NCBI GenBank assembly: GCA_002155105.1
Contig: MUZD01000009.1
Coordinates: 62,001-126,000, forward strand
DNA length: 64,000 bases
Direction: 5' to 3'
Origin: Sedimentibacter sp. SX930
GTDB lineage: Bacteria > Bacillota > Bacilli > Lactobacillales > Aerococcaceae
The translations under genes and the position numbers were made by a program. The notes under the pieces were generated by a model. The model worked only from the letters and a program-made list of their open reading frames with translations, made no database searches and had not been told where the DNA came from. Positions within the stretch are counted from its first letter, which is position 1. Every line of letters starts with the position of its first letter. Positions 6,107-28,280 of the stretch are shown here, piece after piece.

Positions 6107-6182
6107 TCAGGGAATGCTTTCGGCGGCTCCCGATTATTCCGGTGCCGCTGCAGCTTTTTTCCTGAATGAAAAGAGGGTTACA

Positions 6183-7706
6183 GTGGATAAAAACAAACAA
6201 TTCGCCATCAATATGATTGCCCAAGTCGTCGGCTTCGTAGTGATGATGGGGATCAGCTTCCTGTTGACCCCGTTCGTTGTGGAGCATGTCGGCAGTGAGG
6301 CGTATGGGTTCGTCGGTTTGGCGAACAACTTCGTCAGCTACGCGCAGGTCATCACCGTCGCGTTGAACTCGATGGCCAGCCGCTTCATCACAATCAAAAT
6401 CACCGAAAATGATGTGGAAGGGTCGAACCGCTATTTCACTTCGGTTGTCGTCGCAAATATCTTTACGGCCTTGGTATTGAGCGTTCCGTCGGCCATCATC
6501 ATCCTGAATCTGAACAAGATCGTGAACGTTTCCGATGCAATTCTGATCGACGTGCAATGGTTGTGGGCATTCATTTTCCTTAATTTCCTGGTCAGCATCA
6601 TCTCGTCGACATACAGTGTGGCGACATTCGTCCGCAACAAACTGTACTTGACTTCGCTGCAGGGCATCATTTCCAACGTCCTGCGGGTAGCGGTGCTGAT
6701 CGCAGCATTCAGCTTTTTCGTTCCGTCAGTCTGGTATGTCGGTCTGGCCGCATTTGTGGCCACCGTCTACGTATACATCTGGAATGTCTATTACACGCGC
6801 AAATTGACTCCCGAAATCAAGGTGCGGAAGCGATACTTTGATATGAAAGTCATCAAAGTGTTGCTGTCCTCCGGTATCTGGAACAGCTTCACGCGGTTGA
6901 GTTCGATCCTGTCGACCGGTCTCGATCTGTTGGTGACGAACCTGTACGTCAGTTCGGCCGCAATGGGTGTGCTCTCGGTCGCCAAAACGGTCCCGAGTGC
7001 AATCCTGACTTTGTTCGGGACTTTGGCGAGCGTCTACGCGCCGCAGCTGACGATCAGCTATGCAGAGAATAATTACAAGGAAATGAAGAACCAATTGATG
7101 TCTTCAATCAAATTCCTCGGTCTGTTCGCCTGCATCCCGGTAGCAGCGCTGTTCGCTTACGGGGAAATCTTTTACAAATTATGGGTGCCGACCCAGGATG
7201 CGCATCTCTTGTACATGCTGACGATTTTGTCCTGCATCGAGTTTATGTTCGTCTTGCCGTTGGAAGGGCTGTGGAACCTCTTTACAGCCACAAACAAGGT
7301 CAAACAGACTTCCATCTACATGTTCGCCAACTCGATCGTTACGATCAGCATTGTCTTGGTGGCGTTGCAGTTCACAACCGATGACACATTGAAGCTGTAT
7401 ATCATTGCTGGGACGAGCACAGCCTTTGCAGTGATCCGCTCCCTGTTCTTCCTGCCGATTTACGGGGCGCATTGCCTCAACATCAAATGGACAGCCTTCT
7501 ATCCATCCATCTTGAAGAACACCTTGTCGGTCATCGTGGCTTCGGTCTTCTCGCTGTTGGTCCGGAACTTCCTGATCATCGACGGCTGGATGATGCTGAT
7601 CTTTGCCGGTATCCTGACGAGCATCTTTGCGATCGGCTTCAACTTCATCGTCCTTTTGAATAAAGAGGAACGGTCTGCGGTCGTCAAAAAAGTGTTGCGC
7701 AAATAA
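6183..7706 (+). CDS. wzx: Wzx-type oligosaccharide flippase (PST/MATE-like)
   Basis: A 507-residue integral membrane protein with about a dozen hydrophobic segments along its length, opening with FAINMIAQVVGFVVMMGISF. This pattern fits the polysaccharide transporter family that flips undecaprenyl-linked repeat units across the membrane. I chose the GTG at 6183 because AGAGGG lies five bases upstream and the first membrane segment then begins near residue 10; the upstream in-frame ATG at 6114 adds 23 unlikely residues. Its place between transferases supports the role. Confidence 0.85.
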   Translation: MDKNKQFAINMIAQVVGFVVMMGISFLLTPFVVEHVGSEAYGFVGLANNFVSYAQVITVALNSMASRFITIKITENDVEGSNRYFTSVVVANIFTALVLSVPSAIIILNLNKIVNVSDAILIDVQWLWAFIFLNFLVSIISSTYSVATFVRNKLYLTSLQGIISNVLRVAVLIAAFSFFVPSVWYVGLAAFVATVYVYIWNVYYTRKLTPEIKVRKRYFDMKVIKVLLSSGIWNSFTRLSSILSTGLDLLVTNLYVSSAAMGVLSVAKTVPSAILTLFGTLASVYAPQLTISYAENNYKEMKNQLMSSIKFLGLFACIPVAALFAYGEIFYKLWVPTQDAHLLYMLTILSCIEFMFVLPLEGLWNLFTATNKVKQTSIYMFANSIVTISIVLVALQFTTDDTLKLYIIAGTSTAFAVIRSLFFLPIYGAHCLNIKWTAFYPSILKNTLSVIVASVFSLLVRNFLIIDGWMMLIFAGILTSIFAIGFNFIVLLNKEERSAVVKKVLRK

Positions 7707-7728: not shown

Positions 7729-8535
7729 ATGACGAAGATACCAAAAATCATCCATTACTGCTGGTTCGGCGGCGCGCCGATTCCGGAAAAAGACAAAGCC
7801 TGCATCGAAAGCTGGAGGAAATTCTGTCCGGATTATGAAATCATCGAATGGAACGAAAGCAATTATGACATAGCCAAAAACCGCTACATGAAGGAAGCAT
7901 ACGACGTGAAGAAGTGGGGATTCGTGCCGGACTATGCCCGTTTGGATATCGTCTATACGCATGGCGGCATCTACTTGGACACGGATGTGGAAATCATCCG
8001 CAATATGGATCCGCTGCTGGAGGATGAAGCTTTCATGGGCTTCGAAGACGGCAAATTCGTGGCTTTGGGATTAGGGTTCGGTGCCGCAAAAGGCAATCCG
8101 CACATCAAAACCATGCGCGATGTCTATGAAGGTGTCTCCTTCATCAATCCGGACGGCAGTTTCAACACTTTGCCAAGTCCGCATTACACGACTGAATATC
8201 TGTTGGAGAAGGGTCTGAAACAGAATGATGCGTTCCAGCAGATAGAAGGCATCAGCATCTATCCGAAAGCCTATTTCTGCCCGCGTGATTATTATACTGG
8301 GGCGATGAACCTGACTGAAAATTCCTACACGATCCATCACTACAATGCTTCTTGGCTTTCAGACAAGGAAAAGCAGAATTACGAACGCAAACTGCGCCTG
8401 ATAGAACGCTACGGCAAGACGATCGGAACCGGCCTGCATTACGTCCTGTCGGTTCCGGATATCCTGAAAAGGAACGATATCGGCGGTTTGATCGGGAAAG
8501 TCCTGAAGAAAATCGGCGGCATTTTCCGGAAATAA
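7729..8535 (+). CDS. GT32-type glycosyltransferase (DXD protein)
   Basis: A 268-residue transferase of the Gly_transf_sug type. It begins KIPKIIHYCWFGG, then has ESWRKFCPDYEIIEWNE and the metal-binding GGIYLDTDVEI motif, which together are diagnostic. Such enzymes decorate capsular and teichoic polymers. It is the last gene of the first EPS operon and ends about 24 bases before a strong bidirectional hairpin. Confidence 0.9.
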   Translation: MTKIPKIIHYCWFGGAPIPEKDKACIESWRKFCPDYEIIEWNESNYDIAKNRYMKEAYDVKKWGFVPDYARLDIVYTHGGIYLDTDVEIIRNMDPLLEDEAFMGFEDGKFVALGLGFGAAKGNPHIKTMRDVYEGVSFINPDGSFNTLPSPHYTTEYLLEKGLKQNDAFQQIEGISIYPKAYFCPRDYYTGAMNLTENSYTIHHYNASWLSDKEKQNYERKLRLIERYGKTIGTGLHYVLSVPDILKRNDIGGLIGKVLKKIGGIFRK

Positions 8536-8643: not shown

Positions 8644-11600
8644 TCAAGCAATTTCTGTGTAGAGGCCGATTGTGTATTCGGCTTGGCCGGTACTTGCTGC
8701 GTAATAGGCAAGCCCATCGACAACATAGACGTAGCCGTCACCGTAAAGGGCATGAGCGATATGGTGCATCGCGAGATCGTTCCATTGTCCATTATCCTGT
8801 GCGCCGACCGCCTCGCCGAGGTATTCGACGGTTACGGTTGTCGTTGACAGGTCAGAAAGTTTGTACCAACTCGTGTATTCGCCATAGACATTGGTTGCGA
8901 CAGGTGTGACCTGCACCGGCATCACGACATAATCCTCAAAAACGAATGGATTGCCGGCGCCGCGGTAACCTTTTTCCGTCCAGTCCTCTTCAATGATGAG
9001 ACCGGCTGGATGGAGTTGCCATTGGTCATTGCGCCAGTCACCTGAAGTGTTGTAGTACAAGGAGATGCTGTTGTACGGTTGTTCGGATGTCGTCAAATAC
9101 CAAGTGCCACCTACTTCGAAGACGTTCGTATCGACGAAATTACCTTCCAGCAAAGTGGAGTGATAATCCCAATCGAGAGGGAAAGAAGTTGCAAAGAAGG
9201 CTTCAACATTGCCGGCTTGATCGGGAACCATGTAGTAGTTTTCATTGTACTCGAAAACGTTAGGATAGGCTGCACGGATGCCATCGGTTTCCGGACCGAG
9301 GACAATTTGAGTATAGGTCCAGTTGACGAGGTCGCTGCTGTAGGCGTGGGCGACACTGTCCGTGAAGCTTTGGGTTGCAATGTTGTAGTCGCGCAAAACT
9401 TCGAAGAACATATGGTAGACACCATCGACCAGGATGATAAACGGATCGGCTGTGCCCAGTGGATTGTAGACATCGGTCACGTCATTCCGGGTGATGACCG
9501 GATTGGTGACATTCCCGAAGTCATCGAGCACAGGGACAACGAATTCCGGTTCAGGTTCCACGTAGCTGTAGTCGCCTTCATAGGCAAGCAACTCGCTGAT
9601 GGTCGTGAATTGATAACCAAGGGCGCGAGCGGCTGTGATCATTTCCAGCAATGCGGTAGGGGTCGTACTGGCCGAACTGTTGCCGTGCAGAAGATAGATG
9701 GCACCAGCTGAAAGGTTGTTCAGGACAGCCGCGCTGACTTGGCTGGCCGAAAGCGTTCCGGACCAGTCGCGGGTGTCGACTGTCCAACCGATTGTGTAAC
9801 TGTAGCCTAGACTGCCGGCTGTTGCCAATACGGTTGCGTTCGTTTCACCCATCGGAGCGCGGAAGTAAGGCGTTGTGCTTTCGCCGGTAGCTGTTTTGAC
9901 CAGTTGCTCCAATTGATTCAGATCGGCCGTCAATTCGGCTGCCGTCATCTGAGTGGCATCGTCTTGGGTAAAGGTGTGGTTACCGATTTCATGGCCTTGG
10001 GCGATAATGTCGTCAATCAAGGTCGGGTCGGTCAAGCCATTCAGGAAGAAGGTCGCTTTGACGTCCAGCAGCGCCAGATTCGCCAATATCTGGCGGAGGT
10101 TGGCAGCACTGGAAACATCACTGATGGTCAAGGAAATGACTTGTTGATTGGTGTTGACTTGATTGACCAATTGCGAAGGTATCGTGATGACCGGCGGATC
10201 AGGGTCTACCGGATCGACCGGGTCCACAGGGTCTGCCGGATCAGGATAGATGCCTTGGAGAGCCAACAAGCCTGTGACCGTAGTGAATTCATAACCAAGC
10301 GCACGTGCTGCTGCGACCATTTGCAACAAAGCTGCCGGTGTAGTGGCCGCTGCGCTGTTCCCGTGCAACAGGAAGATGGAACCAGGAGTCAAGCTGTTCA
10401 CAACGGCGGAGCTGACTTGTGCTGCGGTCAGTGTTCCGGACCAGTCGCGTGTGTCCACTGTCCAGCCGATCGTGTAGTCATATCCAAGCGTACCGGCTGT
10501 TGTGAGGACGGAAGTGCTCGTTGCCCCCATCGGAGCGCGGAAATAAGGTTTTGAACTTGTTCCGGAAGCATTTTGGACCAGTTGCTCAAGATTGTTGAGG
10601 TCGTTGGTCAATTGGGCTTCGGTCATTTGGGTGGCATCGTCATGGCTGAAGGTGTGGTTGCCGATTTCATGGCCTTGGGCGATGATGTCATCAATCAAGG
10701 TCGGATCGGTCAAACCGTTCAGGAAGAAGGTGGCTTTGACATTCAGAGTGGCCAAGTTCGCCAATATTTCGCGGAGGTTGTCTGCGTCCGAAGCATCGCT
10801 GATGGTAAGGGAAACTACTTTTTCGCCTGTCGTTACCTGATTGATCAGCTGTGAAAGGACGGTTTCGACCGGATCAACCGGATCGGTAGGGTCTTCCAAG
10901 TAAACGCCATCCAATTCGATCAGATCACTGATTGTCGCGAACGAGTAACCAGCTTCACGGGCCGAAGCGATGATTTCGTACAAGGAACCTGGTGTGTTGG
11001 CGGATTCTGGCACGGCATGCATCAAGTAGATGGAACCTGGTGATAATTGGTCCAACACGTTGAAGGCAATTTCTTCAGAAGATAATGTTCCAAGGTAATC
11101 CAAGGTGTCGACTGACCAACCTACAGTGTAGGTATAGCCAAGGCTGCCGAGCGTTTCCAGAACAGACTGATCGTAATCCCCGTATGGCGGGCGGAAGAGC
11201 GGTCTGGATGTTGCGCCTGTCGCATTTACGATTTTGTTTTCCAATGCGTTCAGCTCAGCCGTAAATTCTGCGATGGTCAAGTAGGTAGAGAATTCATGCG
11301 AGTAACTGTGGTTCCCCAGTTCATGGCCTTGGGAAACGACTTGATACAGCATGTCCGGATCGGCTGTGCCGTCCGCGAAGAAAGTCGCTTTGACATCCAA
11401 TTCAGCCAAAGCATCGAGGATGCCTTGCAGAACTTCACTGTCTCCTAAATCGTCAAAAGTCAAGGAGATCACTTTTTGGTTCGTATCGATCTGTTCGATG
11501 AATTGGGATACGCCGTCAGAAATGTCGCCTGACCCGTCATCACTGCCGTCATCATAGACGCCTTCCAGCGCCATCAATTCATCGATCGTGACGAATTCAT

Positions 11601-14600
11601 AGCCTTGATTGCGGGCTTCTGCGATTAGGTACCAAAGGGATTGTGGCGTGCCGACAGCAGTCGGATTCGCATGCAGCAAGTAGATTGAGCCTGCATCCAG
11701 ATAATCAGTTACGCTGGCTGCGATCTGCGTTTCGGATAAACCTTCCCAGTCGCGTGTGTCCTGCGTCCAACCGATCGTATAAGCGTAGCCGAGGCTGCCG
11801 AGTGTTTCGAGCACGGCATCGTTATAGACCCCTGCTGGAGCACGGAAATACGGTTTGGAGGATACGCCTGTAGTTTGCAGAATGTAATCTTCCATCAGTT
11901 CCAAGTCATAAGCCAATTCATCGGCTGAAAGGGATGTGGAATCGTCATTGTGGGAATAAGTATGGTTCGACAATTGGTGTCCGGTTGCTACCAGTTCGGC
12001 CATCAATCCGGGGTCGGTTGTGCCGTTCAGGAAGAAGGTAGCTTTGACGCCGAGATAGTTGAGGTTGTAGATGATGTCGGCCAGGTTGGTATAGTCGTCA
12101 CCGTCATCAAACGTAAGGGCGATGACATTGCGGCCGGTATCGACATGGCTGACGAAGCGGGATGGTCCCGTCCCGTAATCAGGTTCTTCGACAACTGGAT
12201 CGGTGACTACAGGTTCTTCACCGACATAGATGCCTTGATAAGCCAACAGGCCGGTGATGGTCTCGAAGCGGTAACCAAGTGCCTGTACTGCGGCCACCAT
12301 CTGCAGGATTGCTGCAGGTGTCGCAACTGCATCGGCGCTTCCGTGCAAAAGAAGGATGGCTCCTGGGGACAAACTGTTCACGACAGCGGTACTGATTTGC
12401 GCTGCTGTCTGTGTTCCGCTCCAGTCGCGGGTTTCGATTGTCCAACCGATGGCGTATTGATAACCGAGACTGCCGGCTGTAGTCAAAACGGCCGCGTTGG
12501 TTTCGCCCATCGGTGCCCGGAAATAAGGTGTCGTGCTGGTTCCGGCTGCATTTTGGACGAGTTGCTCAAGGTTATTGAGGTCCGCCGTCAATTGAGCTTG
12601 GGTCATTTGCGTAGCATCTTCGTGGCTGTAGGTATGATTGCCGATTTCGTGGCCTTGGGCGATGATGTCATCGATCAGGCTCGGATCGGTCATGCCGTTC
12701 AGGAAGAAGGTGGCTTTGATTCCCAATAGCGCAAGGTTGCTGAGAATCTGCCTTACATTTTCGGTCCCGGATGCGTCACTGATGGTCAAGGAGATGACCG
12801 GCACATCGGTGTTGACTTGGTTCACGATCTCTGCGGGTGAAGTAGTACTCGGAGGCGTTGGATCAGGATCAGGTATTGTTTCACCAGGTTCCTCCCCGGG
12901 TGTTGTCGGGTAAGAGCCCTCCAAAGCTAGCAAACCGCTGATCGTAGCGAAGTTGTAGCCGAGTTGGCGGATGGTTGTGATCATCTGCAATAAAGCCGCA
13001 GGTGTTGTGCTGGCGGAAGCATTTCCGTGCATAAGGAAGATGGCGCCTGGTGCCAAGTTGTTCACGACAGCAGAGCTGACTTGAGCTGCTGTCAATGTGC
13101 CGCTCCAGTCACGGGTATCGACTGTCCAGCCAATGGTGTACATGTAGCCCATACTGGCTGCGGTGGCAAGGACTGCATCATTTGTCGCGCCCATCGGTGC
13201 CCGGAAGTAAGGACGGGTAGTAGCTCCACCTGTGCTGTCCTGGACCAATGTTTCCATGGCATTCAGTTCCCAGACGACTTCATCCACGGTCATTGCGGTG
13301 GCATCATCGTGGGTGTAGGTGTGGTTGCCGATTTCATGACCTTGTTGAATGATTTCGTTGATCACTGTGGGATCGGTCAAACCGTTCAGGAAGAAAGTGG
13401 CTTTCACATCCATAGTCGCCAGGTTCGCCAGAATTTCGCGGACATTATCGGCGTCCGACGCATCGCTTATTGTCAAGGAGATGGTTTTTTCGCCGGTGGA
13501 AACTTGGTTAATGACTTCTGATAGGATATCATCCGAATAATCCTCTTCGATTTGGTCTTCTTCTTCGGCTGTGAAATAACCACCCAATGCCAACAAATCG
13601 CTGACAGTGGAAAAACTGTAGCCGGCTTGTTTCAGCGCCGCAATCGAATACCATAAGGATTCGGGTGTATTGGCTGCACCTACGCTGGCATGCATCAGGA
13701 CAATGGAACCGGGTCTGACATTATTGACGACTGCGTTGCTGACCGCAGTTGCAGAAATGCCGGTCCAATCGAGCGTATCGACGTCCCAACCAATCGTGTA
13801 TTGGTAACCGAGGCTACCGACCGTATCCAAAACGGAACTGTTGTAGGAACCGTAAGGGAGGCGGAAGAAAGGCAAGGATGAAGTGCCGGTTGTTTCTTGG
13901 ATGTAATCTTCCATCAGGTTGATATCGTTCGCCAAAGCGGATGACGAAAGTGTTGCAGAGTCTCCATGTGAGTAGGTGTGGTTGGCCAATTGATGGCCAT
14001 CCGCCACAATCTGCTGCAGCAAGGAAGCGTCGGCATCGCCATTCATGAAGAAAGTGGCCTTCACGCCTAAGTAGTTCAAATTATCCAGAATCTCGTAAAG
14101 GTTACCATAGGAATGGCCATCATCGAACGTCAGAGCGATCACATTATCTGCGATATTTACTGAATTGATGATTTGCGAAGTTCCCGAAAAATCGCTGACT
14201 GCCGTTGCAGCCATCAGTTGCATCGGTTCTTCGTAAGTGATTTCGGCTTCTTCAATCGACTCTAGTGGTGCAGTTTCTTCGGTCACTTCAATCGGTTCTG
14301 TCGGAGTTTCCGTTGGCTGTTCCGTTTCAATCGGAGTTTCTGTGCCGGAAGCAGGTTGTTCTACAGTTACATCCACTGGATTTTCTTCAGGAATGGGTGT
14401 TACGGGTGCAGTCGTATCTGGAGTAGTTGTTTCCGTTATGGGCGGTGTCGGGTCGGTTGCTTCCGGTGTGGTCGCGTCCTCAGTAGGCGTGGTCGCCGGT
14501 GTGGTTGTTTCTGTGGTGGTTGGTTGCGGATCGGCCGTTTCCGGCAGAGGCTGTTCTGTAGGTGGTGCAGGTGTTTCCGTCATCTGCTCATCTACCGCAG

Positions 14601-14835
14601 TCATTTCTGCGGGCGGAGATTCCGTGGTTGTTGTTGAGGGTGTGCTTGCGACATTGGTTTCCGTCACTGTTTCCGGCAGTTGAATACCTGGCGGCTGTTC
14701 ATAGAGAATGGGTTCTGAGAGTGTCATTTCAGTAATCTCTGCGGTCCCTTCCGTTGCTGCAGATACATCTGTCAGCGCGCCGTACATCGTAAATATGACT
14801 AAGAAAGGAGGCAGTATCATGAAACTTTTTTTCAT
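8644..14835 (-). CDS. Secreted giant protein: seven tandem NodB deacetylase-like modules plus beta-propeller
   Basis: A 2063-residue protein. A signal peptide (residues 1 to about 27) is followed by a Thr/Pro/Glu-rich linker to about 215, then seven NodB homology modules of about 220 residues. Their motif 1 lies at 236-240 (TFDDG), 455-460 (TISDAS), 684-689 (TISDAS), 908-912 (TFDDG), 1126-1130 (TFDDL), 1344-1349 (TISDAS) and 1570-1575 (TISDVS). Motif 2 (HTYSH type), FR.P.G and a C-terminal L.H are seen in every module, except that module 7 has HTFTQ. Residues about 1770-2063 are a five-bladed propeller resembling GH43-like or GINT1-like domains, starting with ADPFIILVDGVYHMFFE. No sortase signal is seen. 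Family knowledge suggests removal of acetyl groups from EPS or peptidoglycan N-acetylhexosamines. AGGAGGG lies seven bases before the ATG. It sits inside the EPS region on the opposite strand. Confidence 0.88.
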   Translation of the reverse strand: MKKSFMILPPFLVIFTMYGALTDVSAATEGTAEITEMTLSEPILYEQPPGIQLPETVTETNVASTPSTTTTESPPAEMTAVDEQMTETPAPPTEQPLPETADPQPTTTETTTPATTPTEDATTPEATDPTPPITETTTPDTTAPVTPIPEENPVDVTVEQPASGTETPIETEQPTETPTEPIEVTEETAPLESIEEAEITYEEPMQLMAATAVSDFSGTSQIINSVNIADNVIALTFDDGHSYGNLYEILDNLNYLGVKATFFMNGDADASLLQQIVADGHQLANHTYSHGDSATLSSSALANDINLMEDYIQETTGTSSLPFFRLPYGSYNSSVLDTVGSLGYQYTIGWDVDTLDWTGISATAVSNAVVNNVRPGSIVLMHASVGAANTPESLWYSIAALKQAGYSFSTVSDLLALGGYFTAEEEDQIEEDYSDDILSEVINQVSTGEKTISLTISDASDADNVREILANLATMDVKATFFLNGLTDPTVINEIIQQGHEIGNHTYTHDDATAMTVDEVVWELNAMETLVQDSTGGATTRPYFRAPMGATNDAVLATAASMGYMYTIGWTVDTRDWSGTLTAAQVSSAVVNNLAPGAIFLMHGNASASTTPAALLQMITTIRQLGYNFATISGLLALEGSYPTTPGEEPGETIPDPDPTPPSTTSPAEIVNQVNTDVPVISLTISDASGTENVRQILSNLALLGIKATFFLNGMTDPSLIDDIIAQGHEIGNHTYSHEDATQMTQAQLTADLNNLEQLVQNAAGTSTTPYFRAPMGETNAAVLTTAGSLGYQYAIGWTIETRDWSGTQTAAQISTAVVNSLSPGAILLLHGSADAVATPAAILQMVAAVQALGYRFETITGLLAYQGIYVGEEPVVTDPVVEEPDYGTGPSRFVSHVDTGRNVIALTFDDGDDYTNLADIIYNLNYLGVKATFFLNGTTDPGLMAELVATGHQLSNHTYSHNDDSTSLSADELAYDLELMEDYILQTTGVSSKPYFRAPAGVYNDAVLETLGSLGYAYTIGWTQDTRDWEGLSETQIAASVTDYLDAGSIYLLHANPTAVGTPQSLWYLIAEARNQGYEFVTIDELMALEGVYDDGSDDGSGDISDGVSQFIEQIDTNQKVISLTFDDLGDSEVLQGILDALAELDVKATFFADGTADPDMLYQVVSQGHELGNHSYSHEFSTYLTIAEFTAELNALENKIVNATGATSRPLFRPPYGDYDQSVLETLGSLGYTYTVGWSVDTLDYLGTLSSEEIAFNVLDQLSPGSIYLMHAVPESANTPGSLYEIIASAREAGYSFATISDLIELDGVYLEDPTDPVDPVETVLSQLINQVTTGEKVVSLTISDASDADNLREILANLATLNVKATFFLNGLTDPTLIDDIIAQGHEIGNHTFSHDDATQMTEAQLTNDLNNLEQLVQNASGTSSKPYFRAPMGATSTSVLTTAGTLGYDYTIGWTVDTRDWSGTLTAAQVSSAVVNSLTPGSIFLLHGNSAAATTPAALLQMVAAARALGYEFTTVTGLLALQGIYPDPADPVDPVDPVDPDPPVITIPSQLVNQVNTNQQVISLTISDVSSAANLRQILANLALLDVKATFFLNGLTDPTLIDDIIAQGHEIGNHTFTQDDATQMTAAELTADLNQLEQLVKTATGESTTPYFRAPMGETNATVLATAGSLGYSYTIGWTVDTRDWSGTLSASQVSAAVLNNLSAGAIYLLHGNSSASTTPTALLEMITAARALGYQFTTISELLAYEGDYSYVEPEPEFVVPVLDDFGNVTNPVITRNDVTDVYNPLGTADPFIILVDGVYHMFFEVLRDYNIATQSFTDSVAHAYSSDLVNWTYTQIVLGPETDGIRAAYPNVFEYNENYYMVPDQAGNVEAFFATSFPLDWDYHSTLLEGNFVDTNVFEVGGTWYLTTSEQPYNSISLYYNTSGDWRNDQWQLHPAGLIIEEDWTEKGYRGAGNPFVFEDYVVMPVQVTPVATNVYGEYTSWYKLSDLSTTTVTVEYLGEAVGAQDNGQWNDLAMHHIAHALYGDGYVYVVDGLAYYAASTGQAEYTIGLYTEIA

Positions 14836-15214: not shown

Positions 15215-15284
15215 TGATGAAGCGATATTAAGTAGGGTGATGGGCTGTTATGCAGCCGCATTGCGCAGAAAGAGGCTCAAATCG

Positions 15285-16382
15285 ATGAATGACACAAGAA
15301 GCAATTATTTTAAGAAGAAAAAAAGGAACCGAATCATTATTCTATCATTGGTGGGTTTTGCCCTCGTCGCTTTCGCGCTGTTCTGGACTGTCTACGACGA
15401 TGTGGAGAGCACGCTGAAAACTGTTTTTGAAGATGTCGAAACGGAGAACATGCGGAAAGAGGAAGTTTCGGTCGATGCGACTCATCCGATTTCGTTCGCG
15501 CTGTTGGGGATCGACATGTACGGGGATGGGATCGCGGAAGGTAGCGGTCGTTCGGACACCATCATCGTTGCGACGGTCAATCCTAAGACCAAAAAGACCA
15601 CGATCGTCAGTGTGCCGCGCGACAGTTATGCCGAGATGGTAGGCTATGAAACGAATAGCTATCCGGAGTACAACGACAAGATCACGCACGCCTACGCATT
15701 CGGCAGTACCCAGATGGCCATCAACTCCATCCAGGAATTCCTGAATGTGCCGATCGACTATTACGTCGAAATCAATATGCAGGGGCTGCATGACATTGTT
15801 GAAGCAATCGGCGGCATCGAATTGACGAGTCCGTTGACTTTTGAGTTTGAGGGTTCTTCCTTCGTTGAAGGCGAAACGGTCATAGCGGATGGATGGGATG
15901 CCTTGGCTTTCGCGCGGATGCGCAAAGAGGATCCAGAAGGCGATTTAGGTCGTCAGAACAGGCAACGGATGGTCATCAAAGCAATTTTGGATAAGCTGAT
16001 CAGCATCGACAGCGTCACGAATTACAAAAAAATCCTCAGTGCCGTGGAAGTGAACATCCAAACCAATCTTTCCTTTGAAGATCTGCTGGACATCAAGTCA
16101 GGCTATGTGGATGCACTCGACACTTTCACGCAACTTTCGATCGCCGGGGAAGAACTGTACTATGATGAAATCTACTATTATTATGTAGATCCTGAAGAGC
16201 GCTTGCGCATCGCCAACACGCTGCGTGATGAATTGGAAATCGATGAAGTCCAATTCAGCGACATGAACCTATCGGATGCGGACTCATCCTTTGGCTTTGG
16301 CCAGATGACCAGCGCCGGATCAGTTACAGGAACGTCCGATTTCGATAGCATCGAAGAAACGGATGAAGCAGCAAACAATTAA
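15285..16382 (+). CDS. LytR-CpsA-Psr family ligase 3
   Basis: A 365-residue LCP protein with a basic N-terminus, one membrane segment and the full LCP set: LLGIDMYG, SDTIIVATV, SVPRDSY, THAYAFGS and FARMRKEDPEGDLGRQNRQR. It is closest to LCP1: both share YYYYVDPEERLR near the C-terminus. ATG 15285 is chosen because AGAGG lies about nine bases upstream; the in-frame ATG at 15237 would add 16 unlikely residues. It lies directly before galE. Confidence 0.9.
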   Translation: MNDTRSNYFKKKKRNRIIILSLVGFALVAFALFWTVYDDVESTLKTVFEDVETENMRKEEVSVDATHPISFALLGIDMYGDGIAEGSGRSDTIIVATVNPKTKKTTIVSVPRDSYAEMVGYETNSYPEYNDKITHAYAFGSTQMAINSIQEFLNVPIDYYVEINMQGLHDIVEAIGGIELTSPLTFEFEGSSFVEGETVIADGWDALAFARMRKEDPEGDLGRQNRQRMVIKAILDKLISIDSVTNYKKILSAVEVNIQTNLSFEDLLDIKSGYVDALDTFTQLSIAGEELYYDEIYYYYVDPEERLRIANTLRDELEIDEVQFSDMNLSDADSSFGFGQMTSAGSVTGTSDFDSIEETDEAANN

Positions 16383-17755: not shown

Positions 17756-20191
17756 ATGAAGAAAGTTATGCGCAAGGTAAAGTGTCAATGGATAACAGCG
17801 GCAATAATGGGTGCCACAATCGTTGCTTTGGGTGCGGTAGACGTACCTCAAATAGCAGCTGTGGAGGGAAATGACCCAGAAACGACAGTCCCAGTGGAGG
17901 ATGAGAATTTTTCTGCAATAAGCACTGAACCGGGTTCTGTTACCGATAGCATCAGTGATGCGCCAATCGAAACTACGATAACAGCAACGTCCGTTGTAGC
18001 CAAAAGTTACGTGCAAATCCTTTCGACAGCAGACGTTTTCTATGAAGCAATCATCTCCCGGGGAACAGATGCCATCAACACCGCACCATGGGGAACCGAA
18101 GGGTATGAAACAGTCAGCCACAGTTCGGCTTATCTGAATACAGAAGTGAGCGTCAGTCAGGAACAACTGGCGGATAATGGCGTACTCTGGGCGCTGATTT
18201 CAGTGAATGGCAAAGAATTAGGTTGGATCGCAAAAGATGCCTTGCAGGAACAGAAGTATGCCCAAAGTGTATCCGAAAAAGCAGTCGACTATTCTGCGAC
18301 CGTCAACCGCGGAACGGACGCCATCAACACGGCGCCATGGGGAGCGAAAGGATTCCGTACAATCGGAAACAGTTCGGCCTACTTGGGAACGGAAGTGAGC
18401 GTGAGCCAAGAAAAAGTGATGGATTATGGCGTGACTTGGGCGTTGATTTCCGTGAATGGTCAGGAGTTGGGCTGGATCGCGAAGGATGCCTTGAAGGAAC
18501 AAACGTATGCCCAAAGCGTATCCGAAAAAGCAGTCGACTATTCTGCAACCGTCAGCCGCGGAACGGATGCCATCAACACGGCGCCGTGGGGAGCGAAAGG
18601 ATTCCGTACAATCGGAAACAGTTCGGCCTACTTGGAAACCGAAGTGACGGTGAGCCAAGAGAAAGTGATGGATTACGGTGTGACTTGGGCGCTGATTTCA
18701 GTGAATGGCCAAGAGTTGGGTTGGATAGCGAAGGATGCATTGAAGGAAAAGGCATATGCCCAAATCACAAAGGAGACTGCGGTAAGCTATGATGCCATCG
18801 TCAACCGTGATTCGGACGCCATCAACACGGCGCCTTGGGGAACGAAAGGCTACCGGACAACAGCATCCAGTGCGGATTATCTGGGCCAAACGATTGAAGT
18901 CACGAAGGAACAAACGACCGATTACGGCGTGGTCTGGGCACTGCTTTCGGTGGATGGCCAGGAATTGGGCTGGATAGCAAAGGATGCTTTGAGAGAGGTA
19001 ACCTATGCCCAAATCGTTTCCGAAACCGAGGTGGCCTATCCTGCATTGATCAGTCGCGGCTCAGATGCCATCAACACGGCACCATGGGGAACGAAAGGCT
19101 ATCAGACAAAAGCATCCAGTGCGGATTATCTGAATCAAACGATAGAAGTCACAAAGGAACAAACGACCGATTACGGCGTGACCTGGGCGCAAATTTCGGT
19201 GGACGGCCAGGAGCTGGGTTGGATCGCGAAAGATGCCTTGACCGCATTGGAAAGAAAAACGGAAACAAAGACATCGGAAATCGGCTACCCAACAATCGAA
19301 AAGGAAGACGCCACGATTCCTGCAGGCGAAAGATGGACTGTCCAATCGGGGAGCAAAGGGTACGATACGGCAACGTATGAAGTGGATTATGCAGACGGCA
19401 TCGAAATCGGCCGTCGGGAAGTCGGCCGCACAACCAAAGCGGTGAGGGAAGAAATCGTCAAGGTCGGCACCCAGCAGGTAAATGGATCTGGTGAACCGGG
19501 TTCAGCCACCCGATATCACCGTGTGGCGAACGGCGACACGCTTTGGGGGCTATACTACAAGTACGGGCAAACACTGGATCGCCTGTTGGAATGGAATGAC
19601 ATTGTGGATCCGAATCACTTGTCCCTTGGGCAATTAATCAGCGTTGATGGATACAACCGTTACGATGCGATCCTCAAGGAACACCAAATTTTCGCATCGG
19701 AAGAAGAATTTTTGGCGTACATCATTCCGGTATCCCAAAGGCTGGCAGCTGAGAATGGCCTTTATGCCTCAGTGATGATCGCCCAAGCAATCCATGAATC
19801 CGATTGGGGGACGAGCGGCCTCACGACATTGAGTCACAATCTGTTCGGCATCAAAGGGACGTTCGATGGCAATTCAGTCGAAATGCCCACAAATGAAGTG
19901 ATCAATGGCGAACTGATCACGATCACAGCGGGTTTCCGGGCTTACTCAAGTTTGGATGAGTCAGCGCGCGATTATGTGGACCTACTAATGAACGGGCCGA
20001 ATTTTGATAAAAATTATTATGCCCCGGTCTGGATGGAAAACACGACTTCCTACAAGGATGCCACTGCAGCCCTTCAAGGCCGCTATGCGACAGATCCAAA
20101 TTATGCGGCGAGACTGGATGCGTATATAGCAACCTATGAATTGTGGAAGTATGACATTCCAAATGGTGGGGTTGCAGCTTCAAATCAATAA
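17756..20191 (+). CDS. Secreted autolysin: five GW modules, G5, LysM, glucosaminidase
   Basis: An 811-residue exported wall hydrolase. After a signal peptide ending near residue 37 come five GW (SH3-like) modules of 83 residues, which in the family bind teichoic acids; each carries an INTAPWG core and ends ELGWIAKDAL. Their DNA copies start at 18011, 18260, 18509, 18758 and 19007, an exact 249-base period. A G5 domain follows (about 503-575), then a LysM (RVANGDTLW, about 586-630) and a FlgJ-type N-acetylglucosaminidase domain (about 650-800) with AQAIHESDWG and NLFGIKG. Cleavage of peptidoglycan glycan strands is inferred from the family. GGAGG precedes the ATG. Confidence 0.92.
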   Translation: MKKVMRKVKCQWITAAIMGATIVALGAVDVPQIAAVEGNDPETTVPVEDENFSAISTEPGSVTDSISDAPIETTITATSVVAKSYVQILSTADVFYEAIISRGTDAINTAPWGTEGYETVSHSSAYLNTEVSVSQEQLADNGVLWALISVNGKELGWIAKDALQEQKYAQSVSEKAVDYSATVNRGTDAINTAPWGAKGFRTIGNSSAYLGTEVSVSQEKVMDYGVTWALISVNGQELGWIAKDALKEQTYAQSVSEKAVDYSATVSRGTDAINTAPWGAKGFRTIGNSSAYLETEVTVSQEKVMDYGVTWALISVNGQELGWIAKDALKEKAYAQITKETAVSYDAIVNRDSDAINTAPWGTKGYRTTASSADYLGQTIEVTKEQTTDYGVVWALLSVDGQELGWIAKDALREVTYAQIVSETEVAYPALISRGSDAINTAPWGTKGYQTKASSADYLNQTIEVTKEQTTDYGVTWAQISVDGQELGWIAKDALTALERKTETKTSEIGYPTIEKEDATIPAGERWTVQSGSKGYDTATYEVDYADGIEIGRREVGRTTKAVREEIVKVGTQQVNGSGEPGSATRYHRVANGDTLWGLYYKYGQTLDRLLEWNDIVDPNHLSLGQLISVDGYNRYDAILKEHQIFASEEEFLAYIIPVSQRLAAENGLYASVMIAQAIHESDWGTSGLTTLSHNLFGIKGTFDGNSVEMPTNEVINGELITITAGFRAYSSLDESARDYVDLLMNGPNFDKNYYAPVWMENTTSYKDATAALQGRYATDPNYAARLDAYIATYELWKYDIPNGGVAASNQ

Positions 20192-25814: not shown

Positions 25815-28280
25815 ATGTTTCATGGAAATAGAGGACATTGGCGCAGAATCACGCTGGCAAGTGCAGTACTGTTGACTTTAGGGATGGCAAGTGCGCCTGC
25901 GGCTTTTGCCGAAGAACAGAGCGGGACAAGCGCTGTTTCGACACAAACCAACGTACAGATCCTGTCGACCACAGAAGTAAATTATCAGGCCCGCGTACTT
26001 TCAGCAACGGATGCAATCAATACGCAGCCTTGGGGTACACCGGGATTCGAAACGATTGCCTGGAGTGCTGACTACACAGGCAAGACAGTCGCGGTGACGC
26101 AAGAAAAACTGGCAGACAATGGCGTGACTTGGGCGTATGTCTCAATCAATGACACAGCGATTGGTTGGATCGCAAAGACAGCCCTGTCTGAACCGGTTGA
26201 ACCTGATTATCTTGAGGTGCTGGCAACAATCGACATCGAATATACTGCTACGATTACACGTACCACGGATGCCATCAATGCAGCCCCATGGGGAACGCGC
26301 GGGTTTGAAACACTAGCGTACAGTTCTGAATACTTAAACAAGAACGTCACGGTAACTCAGGAAAAAATGATCGAGAATGGTGTCACTTGGGCATTGATTT
26401 CCCTGAACGGAACGCAGATCGGTTGGATCGCCAAGGACGCTTTGACCGAACCGGATTATTTGGAAGTGCTGGAGACTACTGATATCCAGTATACCGCTAC
26501 AATCACGCGCGGCACGGATGCGATCAACACAGTCCCATGGGGAATGCGCGGCTTTAAGACAGTGGCTCTCAGCTCTGCCTACCTAGGCAAGACTGTTTCG
26601 GTAACGCAAGAGAAAGTACTTGAAAACGGCGTAACCTGGGCGTTGATCACAGTGGATGGCAAACAATTGGGTTGGATCGCCACAGGTGCGTTGACCGAAC
26701 CGACTTATGTCCAAATCGTGTCGAAGACAACCGTCGATTATGACGCTACAATTGTCCGCAACGGTGATGCCATCAATTCGCAGCCTTGGGGTACAAGAGG
26801 TTACAGAACTCTGGACAACAGTTCTTTCTATATGAATAAGCAAGTCTATGTTATCCAAGAAGACGTTGCTGACAACGGCGTGACTTGGGCATTCATCACT
26901 TTGGACGGCATCCAATTGGGTTGGATAGCCAAGGATGCTCTGAAGAAGGTTGTCTATGTGGAAATCTTGTCGACGACCGACGTGAATTATCCGGCTACAG
27001 TCACGCGCGGTGGGGATGGCATCAACACGCAACCCTGGGGAACGAGAGGGTATCAAACCATCGGCACCAGCTCCGATTATCTCGGTAAGCAAGTGACAGT
27101 CGTTCAAGAAAAAGTGGCGGACAACGGTGTGACCTGGGCTCTGATCTCGATTGACGGCAGCCAGATCGGTTGGATTGCGAGAGCGGCTTTGACGGAACCG
27201 ACTTATGTCCAAGTTGTCTCTTCGAAGACCGTATCGTATCAGGCGACTGTTTTGCGGGGAACGGATGGCATCAACACCTTGCCATGGGGAATGAAAGGCT
27301 ACAAAACAATCGGCTACAGCTATACTTATCTTGGGCAAAAAGTCACTGTTTCCAAAGAGCAAGTAACGGATAATGGCGTGACTTGGGCTTTGATTTCCCT
27401 CAACGGAAAGGAACTCGGTTGGATTGCGAAGGATGCGCTCTTCAATAAGGTTGTCGCAACGACCGACACTTTCTATAAAGCGACAATCACACGCGGTACG
27501 GACGGCATCAACTCTTTGCCGTGGGGGGTGGAAGGCTACCAGACAGTCGGCTACACTTCAAGTTATCTTGGTTCTGGTGTAACGGTCAACCAAGAGAAAT
27601 TGACCGCGGATGGTGTCCGTTGGGCATTGGTTTCCCTGAACGGAAAAGTATTGGGATGGATTGCGAAGGATGCCTTGACGGTTGCAGATTTGACACACAC
27701 TGTGTTCCTTGACCCGGGGCATGGCGGCTGGGAAGCCGGCGCGTCATACAGCAGCGTGATGGAAAAGACGATCAACCTGGCTGTCTCAAATAAGGTGAAA
27801 GCGAATCTGGAAGCTTTGGGATTCACGGTCATCATGTCGCGCACAACGGATACCTATGTCGGTTTGTTGGAGCGCTCAGAAGAAGCGAATGCATCGGGAG
27901 CGGATATTTTCGTCAGCATCCACCACAATGCGATGCCCGGAAATGCAACCGTCACAGGAATCGAGACGTATTATTATCAATACGACTCCGACTATCCACC
28001 GATCATCAACGAAGAAATGCACAATGATCCGACACGCATTCTGGAAAGCGCCCAATTGGCTTCGGCGATCCAGGATTCCTTGGTTGAAAATACGGGTGCG
28101 CTTGATCGCGGTGTGCGTCGGAACACATTCGCTGTTCTGCGCGAAACGGCTATTCCTGCCGTCTTGCTCGAATTGGGTTACATGAGCTCGCCGACCGAAT
28201 TGGCAAAACTGACTTCGACCAGCTATCAGACGACTTTGGCGAAAGCCATCACTGTTGGGATCGTGGCGTATTTCGAATAA
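25815..28280 (+). CDS. Secreted N-acetylmuramoyl-L-alanine amidase with seven GW modules
   Basis: An 821-residue exported protein. A signal peptide ends near AFA-EEQ (residue 32). Seven GW modules of about 83 residues follow (cores such as INTQPWGTRG, ends IGWIAK or LGWIAK), and then an Amidase_3 domain from about residue 627 to the end. The zinc-enzyme motifs are clear: LDPGHGG, the Glu in SVMEKTINL, SIHHNA and the C-terminal ELGYMSSPTE. It cleaves the bond between muramic acid and the peptide stem. Compared with the two glucosaminidases in this window, here the binding modules come first and the catalytic domain last. It is a monocistronic unit bounded by terminators. Confidence 0.94.
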   Translation: MFHGNRGHWRRITLASAVLLTLGMASAPAAFAEEQSGTSAVSTQTNVQILSTTEVNYQARVLSATDAINTQPWGTPGFETIAWSADYTGKTVAVTQEKLADNGVTWAYVSINDTAIGWIAKTALSEPVEPDYLEVLATIDIEYTATITRTTDAINAAPWGTRGFETLAYSSEYLNKNVTVTQEKMIENGVTWALISLNGTQIGWIAKDALTEPDYLEVLETTDIQYTATITRGTDAINTVPWGMRGFKTVALSSAYLGKTVSVTQEKVLENGVTWALITVDGKQLGWIATGALTEPTYVQIVSKTTVDYDATIVRNGDAINSQPWGTRGYRTLDNSSFYMNKQVYVIQEDVADNGVTWAFITLDGIQLGWIAKDALKKVVYVEILSTTDVNYPATVTRGGDGINTQPWGTRGYQTIGTSSDYLGKQVTVVQEKVADNGVTWALISIDGSQIGWIARAALTEPTYVQVVSSKTVSYQATVLRGTDGINTLPWGMKGYKTIGYSYTYLGQKVTVSKEQVTDNGVTWALISLNGKELGWIAKDALFNKVVATTDTFYKATITRGTDGINSLPWGVEGYQTVGYTSSYLGSGVTVNQEKLTADGVRWALVSLNGKVLGWIAKDALTVADLTHTVFLDPGHGGWEAGASYSSVMEKTINLAVSNKVKANLEALGFTVIMSRTTDTYVGLLERSEEANASGADIFVSIHHNAMPGNATVTGIETYYYQYDSDYPPIINEEMHNDPTRILESAQLASAIQDSLVENTGALDRGVRRNTFAVLRETAIPAVLLELGYMSSPTELAKLTSTSYQTTLAKAITVGIVAYFE

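Follow-up and report, generated by a model that had tools for sequence, protein, structure and literature searches.

The window, a 64,000-nucleotide stretch of contig MUZD01000009.1, carries on its minus strand, at 8644-14835, a single unbroken open reading frame of 2063 amino acids with a GAGGAGG ribosome site immediately 5' of its ATG. The first-pass annotation placed this gene inside an exopolysaccharide (EPS) locus lying on the opposite strand, and the plus-strand neighbours show that reading to be right: they encode glycosyltransferases, a flippase-like protein, EpsG, a CpsB-like protein, three LytR-CpsA-Psr (LCP) proteins and GW-domain wall hydrolases. Two such hydrolases, a glucosaminidase and an amidase (17756-20191 and 25815-28280), vary between species. 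The parts of the protein and the neighbours discussed here are as follows, N denoting a NodB module and P a propeller domain in architecture labels.

6114..7706, plus strand: flippase-like Polysacc_synt protein, co-inherited allele
7729..8535, plus strand: glycosyltransferase (Gly_transf_sug), inherited together with the 7N/6N+1P gene
8647..9555, minus strand: C-terminal GINT1_N (PF24793) domain, residues 1761-2063, GH32/43/130-like propeller by profile
9577..10188, minus strand: M7, predicted pseudo-NodB (1550-1753), TISD, second metal His replaced (HTFTQ)
10258..10866, minus strand: M6, predicted pseudo-NodB (1324-1526), TISD, HTFSH, RAPMG; absent from the T. alkaliphilus orthologue; model pLDDT 95
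10912..11520, minus strand: M5, canonical NodB (1106-1308), TFDD, HSYSH, RPPYG, LMH
11566..12174, minus strand: M4, NodB (888-1090) with canonical metal/base set, motif 3 RAPAG
12238..12846, minus strand: M3, predicted pseudo-NodB (664-866), TISD, HTYSH, RAPMG
12925..13533, minus strand: M2, predicted pseudo-NodB (435-637), TISD (base D to S), HTYTH, RAPMG
13585..14193, minus strand: M1, canonical NodB (215-417), TFDD, HTYSH, RLPYG, LMH
14194..14754, minus strand: Thr/Pro/Glu-rich linker, about residues 28-214, from the translation; fastest-evolving part
14755..14835, minus strand: signal peptide-like N-terminus, residues 1-27, MKKSFMILPPFLVIFTMYGALTDVSAA, read off the translation
15237..16382, plus strand: divergent LytR-CpsA-Psr protein (polymer-to-wall ligase family), 89-99% identical beside each 7N/6N+1P gene

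The seven NodB repeats proposed earlier, behind a signal peptide and a Thr/Pro/Glu linker, are upheld by the domain search, which finds seven modules and not fewer than five. PF01522 (NodB) matches seven stretches of the 2063-residue protein in Pfam (E 2.4e-179), and in a separate genome search M1-M7 each exceed the family cut-off individually (E 2e-23 to 1e-28). The array has a period of 218-229 residues, with pairwise identities among the modules of 40-74%, and the Pro/Thr/Asp-rich linkers between them are of unequal length, an arrangement more like beads on a string; the suggestion that the enzyme is processive finds no support here. Automatic naming of the protein is misleading, because the NCBIfam sporulation models PdaB and PdaA exceed their cut-offs only through summation over the seven repeats. 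The name PdaB (TIGR02764, sporulation deacetylase) is to be avoided, its 932 bits (against 237) being the sum of seven stretches of about 133 bits each.

Every module was originally described as having recognisable NodB motifs. All seven do match PF01522, but this description concealed a division into two classes. M1, M4 and M5 retain the CE4 catalytic set, including TFDD and the metal histidines. M2, M3, M6 and M7 instead read TISD, in which the base Asp is replaced by Ser and the preceding Phe by Ile, accompanied by a Tyr-to-Met change in motif 3. The motif-1 Asp is regarded as the catalytic base of CE4 enzymes (PMC4505593). Across six species, the base position is Ser in 23 of 23 degenerate copies and Asp in all 18 canonical ones, and both classes share an invariant motif-1 metal Asp, first metal His, motif-3 Arg/Pro, motif-4 Asp and motif-5 His. 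Gln replaces the second metal His in 6 of the 23 degenerate copies; within the window the Asp-His-His triad is complete in M1-M6, and M7 has Gln at its second His position. Seven differences are fixed between the classes, four of them (positions 22, 23, 116 and 169) in or beside catalytic motifs. On this pattern, M2, M3, M6 and M7 are not to be filed as catalytic CE4 domains and fit predicted CE4 pseudoenzymes, with a NodB fold and conserved loss of a catalytic residue. The TISD modules, with most of their catalytic groups in place, might nonetheless have weak or altered activity.

A structure model of M6 shows a confident NodB fold (pLDDT 95) that matches the solved structures of PgdA-type deacetylases and of the CE4 pseudoenzyme BA3943. 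The best structural match is Bc1960 (Z 28.2, rmsd 2.0, 198 residues aligned), and the top matches also include BA3943 and BA0150. By its title, another PDB entry holds PdaC D285S, an engineered variant with a comparable D-to-S exchange.

Pairwise dN/dS values are 0.01-0.16 for the degenerate modules, 0.01-0.11 for the canonical ones and 0.40-0.81 for the linker, in ranges that exclude a very close pair with L003 that has few changes. Purifying selection on the degenerate modules is as strong as on the canonical ones, and they are therefore maintained; decay is ruled out by these values. In a tree of 41 modules, all TISD modules and their sisters, TISG modules that lack further metal ligands, form one clade, common to the Trichococcus proteins and a three-module protein from another family (G073). 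Shared motif substitutions were considered as an artefactual source of this clade, which survives removal of the motif columns with moderate support (87 bootstrap/81 SH-aLRT), making a single origin of the TISD/TISG modules likely, if not proven. The trees also place M1 and M5 as sisters of both modules in 2N+4P proteins.

The C-terminal domain had been called a five-bladed propeller. Its family stands, PF24793 (GINT1_N) matching residues 1776-2041 at E 6.4e-23 and 81.7 bits, far above the Pfam cut-off of 27, and profile matches to GH130/GH32/GH159/GH43-type enzymes, all weak, are consistent with a propeller; the five blades, however, are not demonstrated, as a structure model built with six close orthologues reached a pLDDT of 30, too poor to give a fold or blade count. 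The GINT1_N family is named after the N-terminus of a plant glycosyltransferase, whereas here the domain is fused to NodB arrays. Elsewhere, a 721-residue protein of G098 (L049:11854-14019) combines it with three CWB2 wall-binding repeats. In several propeller copies (L048, L047, alignment A1), AEP or ANP stands in place of the conserved ADP motif, and propellers, too, may occur in live and dead versions. A scan of viral contigs returned no relative of the propeller.

Judged by its orthologues in named Trichococcus species, the window comes from a Trichococcus genome. Because orthologues 83-98% identical occur in five named species, and the gene is present in G309 as well, the pattern is not due to chance. 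The 7N+1P architecture occurs in six genomes, the window's own among them; T. alkaliphilus encodes 6N+1P and a separate 3N+1P protein, G060 and probably also G373 (where the gene spans an assembly gap) encode 2N+4P, and G073, from another family of the same order, has 3N with no propeller. Both the T. alkaliphilus 3N+1P and the G073 3N proteins comprise two degenerate modules and one canonical module, and every NodB-bearing member examined has at least one canonical module. More than a dozen nearly identical repeats of the VSETDVDVP type make up the stalk of the T. alkaliphilus 3N+1P protein (L046:2946-6458). In G060, a genome labelled as the same species as the window's, the equivalent part of the EPS locus (L048:3292-17160) has 2N+4P and separate propeller-only proteins (3P, 1P) in place of 7N+1P.

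Of 395 genomes of the order, 11 carry a PF24793 match, 10 of them over cut-off; in a phylum sample, 3 of 398 genomes have one over cut-off, the window's genome being counted in both. In a class-wide sample of 399 genomes, a search at E 1e-50 gave one module per genome, except in the window's own. A PF01522 survey of 149 genomes speaks for the matches listed, and multi-NodB proteins may occur elsewhere. Plasmid tblastn matches all fell below 60% identity and short of 80% query coverage. In place of many described proteins with the same module order, the searches, among sampled genomes and the matches listed, found that order only in Trichococcus, and a limited literature search found no paper on the 2063-residue protein, tandem NodB arrays or PdaC D285S.

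The 7729-8535 glycosyltransferase has counterparts of 92% identity or higher in exactly the seven Trichococcus genomes that carry the 7N/6N+1P gene, and is 59% identical or absent in G060, G373, G274 and G361. The flippase at 6114..7706 shows the same split (91-100% versus at most 42% or absent), and its G073 counterpart, which adjoins the three-module protein, is 79% identical. This co-inheritance with particular glycosyltransferase and flippase alleles suggests that the NodB-array protein belongs to one polymer type, although adjacency alone could be its cause. The earlier proposal that the protein acts on the locus's own polymer gains from this pattern, but the substrate itself remains putative.

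The best-supported reading of these observations, which we consider about evenly poised, is a multivalent secreted surface deacetylase for the polymer of its own EPS locus, with pseudo-NodB modules as binding domains. M1, M4 and M5 would remove acetyl groups, as N- or O-deacetylases, from putatively acetylated sugars of the locus's own glycan, and M2, M3, M6 and M7 would be pseudoenzymes retained as glycan-binding modules of related specificity. Avidity may let the array grip the polymer during cutting by the live modules; alternatively, the array may crosslink chains. Together, the flexible stalk at the N-terminus and the propeller-like C-terminal domain would position the protein in the wall or capsule layer, and the latter, proposed earlier as a second enzyme or lectin-like part, might bind or trim a second glycan. 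The idea that some modules bind and others cut was anticipated from the outset; the two sequence classes, the conserved D-to-S exchange and purifying selection favour it, but binding itself is still putative. The recurrence of the mixture in the T. alkaliphilus 3N+1P and G073 3N proteins is counted in favour of a deacetylase with binding modules, as is the precedent of BA0330/BA0331 for inactive CE4 proteins that interact with peptidoglycan.

Peptidoglycan is a plausible substrate too, as its deacetylases provide the nearest structures. Taken further, this points to a wall-directed protein whose live modules deacetylate peptidoglycan and whose dead ones bind it, tethering or stabilising the surface, with EPS not the target. 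The closest folds, such as Bc1960, act on peptidoglycan GlcNAc, BA0330/BA0331 offer a precedent, and LCP proteins and GW-domain wall enzymes adjoin the gene. A general peptidoglycan enzyme, however, would have no need to be swapped along with EPS-type genes, and two single-domain NodB proteins are encoded elsewhere in the genome; we regard this alternative as unlikely, though deserving of serious attention. Invariance of the metal Asp, first His, Arg, motif-4 Asp and motif-5 His in the TISD modules would also fit an array in which all seven modules are catalytic with differing preferences, the TISD modules using another base residue or acting on another acetyl ester. Loss of the base in every TISD copy and of the second metal His in 6 of 23 makes this improbable, and the loss of more metal ligands in the sister TISG modules fits a drift away from catalysis. 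The variation in copy number and domain mix (7N+1P, 6N+1P, 3N+1P, 2N+4P), with the long low-complexity stalk, is what a surface adhesin or repeat protein might show, its modules mainly an aggregation scaffold whose copy number recombination sets, and any activity incidental; that M1, M4 and M5 conserve their canonical catalytic residues, at the low dN/dS given above, leaves this a long shot.

The TISD/TISG modules might represent a new class of carbohydrate-binding module that arose when a deacetylase lost its catalytic base, was amplified beside live copies and became adapted to the EPS of each strain, a proposal that we make tentatively and rate somewhat below even. The CE4 fold, its chemistry and CE4 pseudoenzymes are already known; what appears to be new is the conserved array of live and dead modules. 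In the limited literature and in the genomes sampled and matches listed, we found no description of NodB arrays in which conserved dead repeats are joined to live ones and inherited together with EPS genes. The natural series, with 2, 3, 6 or 7 modules and live and dead copies in one chain, allows a direct test of how an enzyme becomes a binding domain, and the protein is a candidate multivalent surface enzyme by which a Gram-positive bacterium could modify and retain its coat polymer.

Deacetylases of the PgaB type are EPS-locus enzymes fused to a second glycan-acting domain. The domain fusions of PgaB are documented (PMC7112194), and the protein described here resembles it in joining an EPS-locus deacetylase to a second, putatively glycan-acting domain. 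At the level of general domain architecture, PgaB differs in its NodB class, its one deacetylase domain and its lack of a propeller. With the CE4 peptidoglycan deacetylases Bc1960, SpPgdA and PdaC, the protein shares the NodB fold and, in M1, M4 and M5, motifs 1-5; unlike these enzymes, with their single catalytic NodB domain, it has seven, four of them without the base Asp. BA3943 and BA0150 are CE4 pseudoenzymes or inert members of the family, with a NodB fold but without ordinary activity (PMC10967932), and BA0330/BA0331 are inactive as deacetylases yet interact with peptidoglycan and have a wall-stabilising role (PMC4505593). M2, M3, M6 and M7 are like these proteins in fold and in their predicted inactivity, but BA3943, BA0150 and BA0330/BA0331 stand alone, whereas the degenerate modules here are repeated and fused to canonical ones.
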